Positions 26,610-57,231 of a DNA stretch of 64,000 nucleotides are shown here, one piece after another. Under the pieces are notes generated by a model. It ran no database searches and was not told the origin of the DNA. It worked only from the letters and a program-made list of their open reading frames with translations. Each line of letters begins with the position of its first letter. The stretch's first letter is position 1. Made by a program: the position numbers and the translations under genes. The DNA is from Luteibacter sp. Sphag1AF (lineage in GTDB: Bacteria > Pseudomonadota > Gammaproteobacteria > Xanthomonadales > Rhodanobacteraceae): NCBI RefSeq assembly GCF_014192715.1, contig NZ_JACHYH010000001.1, positions 1 to 64,000 on the forward strand. Reading direction: 5' to 3'.

Positions 26610-26695
26610 GGTTATCCACAGCGGATGTGGACAGTCACTGCATAAACGTGTGGATAACTTGAAACGACCTTTACGCGACAGACACTTGCGTCGCG
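26610..26695 (-). repeat. Dispersed repeat with DnaA-box motifs, copy A1
   Basis: Read on the minus strand: CGCAAG-type head, then TTATCCACA, TTTATGCAGTGACTGTCCACA and GCTGTGGATAACC. It carries perfect TTATCCACA on the plus strand at 26612-26620 and its complement at 26649-26657, with a third partial box (TGTGGACA, 26626-26633) between. It shares this order with four other copies in the window. Confidence 0.8.
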
Positions 26696-26757
26696 CTGAT
26701 CAGAAAGTGCGCAGTGGCAGGCACACATCGCGCACAAGCGGGCTGCCACCACGTTTG

Positions 26758-26863
26758 TGGTTATCCACAGCGAATGTGGACAGCCGCTGCATAAACATGT
26801 GGATAACTGCAAAGCGTCCTTGCGGGGCAATCACTTGCGTTGCACTGGTCAGCGCGTGACCAG
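26758..26863 (-). repeat. Dispersed repeat with DnaA-box motifs, copy A2 (with hairpin head)
   Basis: Same orientation as copy A1. Perfect boxes at 26761-26769 and 26798-26806, partial box at 26775-26782. The head is longer here: CTGGTCA / TGACCAG hairpin (26845-26863) next to TTGCACTGG and CACTTGCGT. Copies A1 and A2 are about 149 bases apart and fill the convergent gap between coaE and the nudix gene. Confidence 0.8.
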
Positions 26864-42070: not shown

Positions 42071-42180
42071 CGTTGCGCTGGTCACTCGTTGACCAGCGCA
42101 ACGCAAGTCATTGGCAGATCACTCGTATCGAAGGTTATCCACAGGTTTATGCCATGCGTTTCCACAGCGCCTGTGGATAG
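42071..42180 (+). repeat. Dispersed repeat with DnaA-box motifs, copy B (diverged, with hairpin head)
   Basis: A 14-bp perfect stem (CGTTGCGCTGGTCA / TGACCAGCGCAACG, 42071-42103, loop CTCGT) is followed by CGCAAGTCA and then a perfect TTATCCACA (42135-42143), a partial TTTCCACA (42159-42166) and TGTGGATAG (42172-42180), which has one mismatch. Most diverged of the five copies. It fills the gap between the toxin gene and the convergent TPM gene. Confidence 0.75.
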
Positions 42181-56868: not shown

Positions 56869-56893
56869 CGCAGAGTCACCGTTTCGCGGTTGT

Positions 56894-56989
56894 TTTTTAA
56901 GCAGCGCAACGCAAGTCACTGGCCGCAAAGGCCCCATCGCACTTATCCACATGCTTATGCAGTGACTGTCCACACCTGCTGTGGATAAC
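56894..56989 (+). repeat. Dispersed repeat with DnaA-box motifs, copy C1
   Basis: TTTTTAAGCAGCGCAACGCA head, then CGCAAGTCACTG, perfect TTATCCACA (56943-56951), TGCTTATGCAGTGACTG, TGTCCACA (56967-56974) and the complement TGTGGATAA (56980-56988). It matches copy C2 160 bases downstream nearly base for base across the box region. Confidence 0.85.
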
Positions 56990-57053
56990 CGCGCTTTTCC
57001 ATGGGGGCAAGCTCGTTCTCACCGCAGCAACGTGATGCTCCGTGCGTGGTCGA

Positions 57054-57149
57054 TTTTTAAGCAGCGCAACGCAAGTCACTGCCGGCCAAGGCTGCTTTGC
57101 ACTTATCCACATGCTTATGCAGTGACTGTCCACATGCGCTGTGGATAAC
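57054..57149 (+). repeat. Dispersed repeat with DnaA-box motifs, copy C2
   Basis: Same head and order as C1. Perfect TTATCCACA at 57103-57111, TGTCCACA at 57127-57134, TGTGGATAA at 57140-57148. The 56990-57053 spacer between copies has no gene. The obgE terminator follows immediately. Confidence 0.85.
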
Positions 57150-57158
57150 AATGCACGC

Positions 57159-57196
57159 AAAAAAATCCCGCAGAAGACGCCAGTCTTCTGCGGGAT
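57159..57196 (-). terminator. Strong Rho-independent terminator of obgE
   Basis: ATCCCGCAGAAGAC / GTCTTCTGCGGGAT (57165-57178, 57183-57196) with a GCCA loop; on the minus strand it runs into a T-run (57159-57164 complement). It is right after the obgE stop. Confidence 0.92.
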
Positions 57197-57231
57197 GTTC
57201 TGATTCAAAACAGCGTTGCGTAAAGCGGCGT

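Follow-up and report, generated by a model that had tools for sequence, protein, structure and literature searches.

A multi-copy 102-bp repeat with DARS-like DnaA-box geometry in Luteibacter and other Xanthomonadales

Escherichia coli DARS (DnaA-reactivating sequences) have been described as two loci, DARS1 and DARS2. According to PMC5742627, a DARS core consists of three DnaA boxes, with box I pointing opposite to boxes II and III, and ADP-DnaA assembles there and releases its ADP. For DARS2, PMC4245941 describes a need for both Fis and IHF, and states that its core, like Fis, is conserved in the gamma-proteobacterial relatives of E. coli. In K-12 DNA, DARS1 lies in the bioD-uvrB gap and reads TTATCCACT-ATTCC-TGTGGATAA-CCA-TGTGTATTA, and the DARS2 core reads TTATTCACC-TTTTC-TGTGGATAG-AGT-TGTGAAGAA; read from these sequences, the boxes stand at offsets 0 (+), 14 (-) and 26 (-) in DARS1 and at 0, 14 and 26 in the DARS2 core. 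Here we analysed a stretch of 64,000 nucleotides from Luteibacter sp. Sphag1AF (contig NZ_JACHYH010000001.1, positions 1 to 64,000, forward strand; hereafter the window), which contains a dispersed 102-bp repeat unit built around four DnaA boxes. Read on the other strand, the unit has its boxes at 0 (+), 14 (-), 25 (-, weak) and 37 (-). Among the titles and abstract openings listed by searches of the open-licence PubMed Central (PMC) literature, none described this repeat family or a DARS from Xanthomonadales. Our best explanation, held with middling confidence, is that the repeat would be a multi-copy family of DARS-type chromosomal DnaA-control sites, most likely reactivating ADP-DnaA.

The window contains nine perfect TTATCCACA DnaA 9-mers plus one box with a single mismatch at 42172-42180, arranged as inverted pairs with a start-to-start distance of 37 bp, just as the original prediction had counted them. 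Its estimate that chance would give well below one such 9-mer in 64 kb also held: over 100 dinucleotide-preserving shuffles of the window the mean was 0.16 and the largest count was 2. Five copies of the unit were found in the window: C1 (56887..56988) and C2 (57047..57148), in tandem on the plus strand with a period of 160 bp; B (42079..42180, plus strand), whose box I, TGTGGATAG, carries the one mismatch; and A1 (26612..26713) and A2 (26761..26862), in tandem on the minus strand with a period of 149 bp. C1 and C2 are 88% identical over 105 nt, and the prediction of two near-identical copies with a fixed box order stood; the predicted length of about 95 bp was too short, the unit being 102 bp long and starting a little further to the left. 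Genome-wide (4.18 Mb in 18 contigs), the perfect 9-mer occurs 34 times, against 8 times for a reversed-pattern control. A profile search found 10 copies of the unit in the whole genome, and by hand count 18 of the 34 perfect 9-mers fall inside units.

To describe the anatomy of the unit we used 64 distinct copies, from 30 loci of the genus and 8 loci of the own genome, selected on boxes IV, II and I at the fixed core spacing. MAFFT aligned these copies without a gap across 114 columns, flank included. Because the selection was made on the core, the core spacing is partly an input, whereas the constant spacing of the flank is a result. The boxes follow one another as IV-3 bp-III-2 bp-II-5 bp-I, with box I inverted; counted from the first base of TTATCCACA, they occupy positions 0-8 (box IV), 12-20 (box III), 23-31 (box II) and 37-45 (inverted box I). 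In copy C1 these are box IV, TTATCCACA, at 56943..56951 (+), the weak box III, TTATGCAGT, at 56955..56963 (+), box II, CTGTCCACA, at 56966..56974 (+), and box I at 56980..56988 (-). The corresponding boxes of C2 lie at 57103..57111 (+), 57115..57123 (+, weak), 57126..57134 (+) and 57140..57148 (-). These four are the only registers in which the unit matches the DnaA consensus with a mean of 3 mismatches or fewer. Box IV has no mismatch in 52 of the 64 copies, and in 9 of the 64 its fifth position, which is the N of TTWTNCACA, has changed from C to G; box I has no mismatch in 33 and one in 31; box II has one or two. Box III (TTATGCAGn) is weak but conserved, mostly with two mismatches (mean 2.0). 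The partial middle box of the original prediction corresponds to the conserved box II, and box III was not on its list. As presented in PMC11317965, E. coli DnaA in vivo prefers tandem boxes 2 or 3 bp apart, and the nrdA site given there, TTATCCACA-aag-TTATGCACT, closely resembles the IV-III pair of the unit. Four boxes in a fixed register, whose gaps of 2, 3 and 5 bp resemble the spacing in double boxes and DARS of E. coli, give strong sequence support to the prediction of a repeat family carrying putative DnaA-binding sites. Overall, the sequence supports well a reading of the 102-bp unit as a place where several DnaA protomers are predicted to dock, accompanied by a Fis-type accessory site.

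The accessory sites lie on the box-IV side. Using the Fis consensus GnnYAnnnnnTRnnC and the IHF consensus as given in PMC4245941, we found at positions -55 to -41 from TTATCCACA the pattern G(64/64)nnY(56)A(57)nnnnnT(64)R(64: G39, A25)nnC(64). The full Fis consensus occurs at this one position in 50 of the 64 copies; the next best offset gave 1 copy, and the reversed control at most 4. The centre of the site has 56% A+T, compared with 30% for the outer flank and 23% for the other variable columns. Among 30 copies from other genera, which were found by a model that itself includes the Fis motif, the skeleton G...(A/G).....T...C was present in all 30 and the full consensus in 16, and 111 of 150 centre bases were A or T. 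Closer to the core, at -31 to -22, lies an IHF-like motif, Y(63)AA(64)nnnn(T/C 49)T(55)G(64). In C1 the Fis-type 15-mer is GGTTGTTTTTTAAGC (56888..56902, +) and the partial IHF-like motif is ACGCAAGTCACTG (56909..56921, +); in C2 they are GGTCGATTTTTAAGC (57048..57062, +) and the motif at 57069..57081 (+). A strict IHF pattern had no match in E. coli DARS2 itself and so is a weak test of the motif in the unit. The host genome encodes ihfA and ihfB, both proteins scoring above the NCBIfam cut-off, and a fis homologue with 42% identity over 74 aa. From these patterns we infer that DnaA and Fis probably bind the 102-bp unit; IHF may do so, less surely.

The unit is spread far beyond the own genome. 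The strict core pattern matched 19 of the 23 genomes of the genus, with zero matches of the reversed control, and the four that it missed (G005, G006, G016 and G021) were matched by profile. Profile R1 found the unit in 107 of the 147 genomes of the family, which represent 23 of its 26 genera, and profile R2 in 185 of the 299 genomes of the order, which represent 52 of 85 genera. The strength of the R2 matches, whose E-values are rough because calibration was shortened, reached 1e-16 in family f2 but stayed at roughly 1e-3 to 5e-7 in the order's remaining families. At the level of the class, 32 of 369 genomes matched at E-values up to 1e-4, 5 of them inside the order and 27 outside; 25 of these 27 had a single match, and in 22 the match covered at least positions 9-110 of the 114. 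We looked at five of the loci outside the order (L143-L147). L143 and L146 carry GGTCA-W5-TGACC, which fits the Fis consensus, at the expected place; at L144 (GGTCAGTTTTTGACC) and L145 (GTTCATTTTTTAGGC) the consensus is likewise fitted at the expected place, L144 being without the box-II part, and L147 matches in the core only. Copies of the unit commonly form tandem arrays, and their number varies among genomes, reaching 16 per genome.

We mapped the units in 24 complete genomes with dnaA located, rounding sizes to 0.1 Mb; of 160 matched units, 150 were placed, the ten weakest matches being the remainder. The mapped units lie at 0.23-0.99 of the distance from origin to terminus and avoid the origin-proximal fifth. 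The corresponding positions in E. coli are 0.66 for DARS1, 0.41 for DARS2 and 0.20 for datA. Box I faces oriC in 135 of the 150 mapped units, most strongly outside the own genus, and by cluster majority in 61 of 68 clusters: 12 of 16 in the own genus (of the clusters there, four did not face the origin, with one mixed), 13 of 14 in other genera of the family and 36 of 38 in family f2. Because the clusters of any one genus mostly go back to shared ancestral loci, the independent sample for polarity is smaller than these counts. In the own genome, with oriC taken at 1.34 Mb of contig C1, three of the five loci on that contig, by hand reading, face away from the origin, which counts against a general origin-facing rule. 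The probable oriC lies at C1:1337679-1337733 (L021), between dnaA and dnaN, and contains two inverted perfect DnaA boxes. Another close cluster of DnaA boxes, outside the 102-bp units, is the tandem array TGTGGATAA-cc-TGTGGATGA-c-TGTGGATAA at contig C2:414847-414876 (L024).

Seven of the eight own loci appear to lie between convergent genes, six according to the gene caller and locus A by its named genes, so that these loci do not look like promoters. Locus A is flanked by coaE (+) and Nudix/thiE (-), and locus C by ybbP-like and obgE genes, convergent in both cases; the left neighbour of copy B had no NCBIfam match. Among 57 loci of relatives, 25 were convergent, 24 co-directional and 8 divergent by a crude gene caller and without de-duplication. 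The convergent ybbP-like and obgE genes also flank a strong inverted repeat (57162-57199; 17-nt arms, 94%), possibly a terminator, which lies next to copy C2.

A second element with related geometry was found beside priA. The pattern TTWTCCACA-N5-TGTGGAWAA-N3-TGTG, whose spacing is exactly that of DARS1, was present in 137 of the 147 genomes of the family and in all 26 genera, once per genome in all but one of the 137, and the reversed control gave 0 matches. Its third box has the same orientation as box II and a 3-bp gap, like box III of DARS. In the own genome this core lies at contig C1:924067-924096 (L016), adjoining priA, with a Fis-consensus sequence, GGTCAAAGATTGACC, about 100 bp away. 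The core adjoins priA in every one of 20 loci drawn from four genera and in 19 of 20 later loci that represent twenty genera (the exception is L187), and the class-level R2 match L143 also lies beside priA. YAA stands exactly at -30 from the first box in 19 of the 20 later loci, and the repeat unit carries YAA at -31. The repeat unit and the priA-side core may share common descent.

Taken together, the unit is very probably a DnaA-control site of some kind. That its outcome would be reactivation rather than hydrolysis or titration is the least certain part of the explanation and is evenly poised; its location far from the origin and its head-to-head boxes speak for reactivation, while sequence alone cannot separate it from titration or hydrolysis. 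In the mechanism we propose, DnaA protomers would dock on the tandem boxes IV, III and II (gaps of 3 and 2 bp) and on the head-to-head box I (5-bp gap), an extension of the geometry with which DARS1 and DARS2 of E. coli bring ADP-DnaA together and drive ADP release. On the box-IV side, binding of Fis and perhaps of IHF, each at a fixed distance, would bend the DNA and activate the site during growth, much as happens at DARS2 of E. coli. A number of these sites over the origin-distal replichores would then jointly set the supply of ATP-DnaA. A wider model, tentative and rather unlikely as a whole, is that Xanthomonadales control DnaA by distributed DARS-like stations, consisting of the fixed priA-side DARS1-type core and multiplying compact DARS2-type units that would be Fis-gated and perhaps IHF-gated, with copy number, tandem arrays and mostly origin-facing polarity tuning ATP-DnaA regeneration as forks pass.

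Several observations weigh against a DARS-type reading. Within the core, the gap between boxes II and III is 2 bp in the unit (offset 25) and 3 bp in DARS (offset 26), box III is weak, and box IV is an extra box, making four where DARS has three. The distance from the Fis consensus to box I is 86 bp in the unit, compared with 145 bp in DARS2, and C1 and C2 each carry one base that departs from that consensus. The IHF-like motif is a partial match in which the AT of WATCAAnnnnTTR is missing, and the Fis homologue of the own genome scores 74 bits, under the NCBIfam cut-off of 99. R1 had no match in 40 of the 147 family genomes, and it gave no match to E. coli DARS1 or DARS2. With filters off, the best R2 scores were 9.3 bits for DARS1 (6.6 on the strand that fits the polarity), 8.3 for datA and 6.8 for the DARS2 core, from partial and short matches throughout, so that the profile cannot tell DARS from datA. 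Up to 16 copies per genome would also be unusual for DARS. At the priA-side core, YAAnnnnnnG was present in 17 of 21 earlier loci, all from five genera, but in only 4 of the 20 later ones, which lowered our confidence in IHF and, by a small step, in the best explanation as a whole. The Fis consensus occurs within 200 bp of that core in only 3 of the 20 later loci and at no fixed place, so the element shares the box pair and YAA with the unit but not the Fis site.

If the units instead acted as a DnaA sink, titrating DnaA or promoting ATP hydrolysis like datA, initiation would wait until they were filled. The concentration of more than half of the perfect 9-mers of a GC-rich genome inside units (18 of 34) would suit such a role, as would the multiplication of boxes in tandem arrays and an R2 score on datA that nearly equals the DARS1 score, on a different part. 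Titration in E. coli finds support in PMC12371093, where the titration boxes are described as concentrated near the origin; none of the mapped units lies nearer than 0.23. Moreover, a sink needs no head-to-head pair, weak box III or fixed-distance Fis site, and the position (0.20) and box layout of datA differ from those of the unit. We regard a sink as unlikely. Quite improbable is a selfish or passively spreading repeat that has captured DnaA, Fis and IHF motifs and has no cell-cycle role. The original prediction had called the repeat mobile-like, and this is borne out in part by the tandem arrays, the variation in copy number and the few own loci that share flanks with relatives (the 183-kb locus on both sides, L084, and B on one side, L072, in a test covering roughly 100 fetched loci). 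It is countered by variation that follows protein consensus (G39/A25 in the R column of the Fis-type site; C to G at box-IV position 5 in 9 of 64 copies), by spacing kept across the order, by 27 matched genomes outside it, 22 of them with a near full-length match, and by the absence of a transposase among the named flanking genes, although no search was aimed at RAYT or other transposases or at empty sites. A phage origin was rejected on the ground that the C1-C2 query matched no phage.

The units could also be marks of chromosome polarity or nucleoid organisation that point toward the origin and are recognised by DnaA or Fis. The origin-facing majority of mapped copies and clusters, including 36 of 38 clusters in family f2, speaks for this reading; the small number of independent loci, the opposite or mixed clusters of the own genus, the three opposite loci on contig C1 and the opposite polarity of E. 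coli DARS1 and DARS2 (by hand reading) speak against it, and it is very improbable. An RNA hairpin, attenuator or terminator is barely credible. Stem formation is conceivable for the Fis palindrome and for boxes IV and I, and the own loci lie mostly between convergent genes, but the covariation score was 0.077 against a shuffle mean of 0.074, with 122 of 500 shuffles as high, and neither stem exceeded the shuffles. A structured RNA was rejected on these compensatory changes, which did not rise above shuffles, and on the absence of an Rfam match in the window.

A multi-copy DARS-like layout, if true, would be a different arrangement of a key cell-cycle control, and a family with near-DARS core geometry, spread over an order and numbering as many as 16 copies in a genome, would broaden a control that has been regarded as narrow. 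Comparative tests of DnaA recharging against initiation timing could draw on its natural differences in copy number, and the priA-side core would be a second target for the same tests.

In comparison with known systems, the unit is nearest to DARS. The head-to-head I/II pair with its 5-bp gap and offsets of 0 and 14 is the same in DARS1, DARS2 and the unit; further boxes oriented as box II follow at gaps of 2-3 bp; the Fis consensus lies on the box-III side in DARS2 as in the unit; and both are intergenic and of mid to distal replichore position. The unit differs in being compact (102 bp) and often tandem, in having no profile match beyond the core and in its location, the window neighbours being other genes than uvrB and mutH beside the E. 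coli DARS and the location not orthologous. datA, to which the original prediction had likened the repeat, shares with the unit DnaA boxes plus an IHF-type motif away from promoters, and differs in box layout, in the Fis-type site and in its origin-proximal place. DARS is the better match, since a head-to-head pair with a 5-bp gap, a Fis-type site and a place far from the origin are all characteristic of it. Titration clusters, such as the origin-proximal boxes of E. coli and the DnaA-box clusters of Bacillus subtilis, likewise have high-affinity boxes outside oriC, whereas the unit has a strict fixed architecture and an accessory site and is not origin-proximal. Intergenic repeats of the REP/BIME (repetitive extragenic palindromic/bacterial interspersed mosaic element) or MITE (miniature inverted-repeat transposable element) type are, like the unit, short, dispersed, intergenic and present in tandem copies; the unit differs in having no covarying hairpin and a conservation pattern like that of a binding site.
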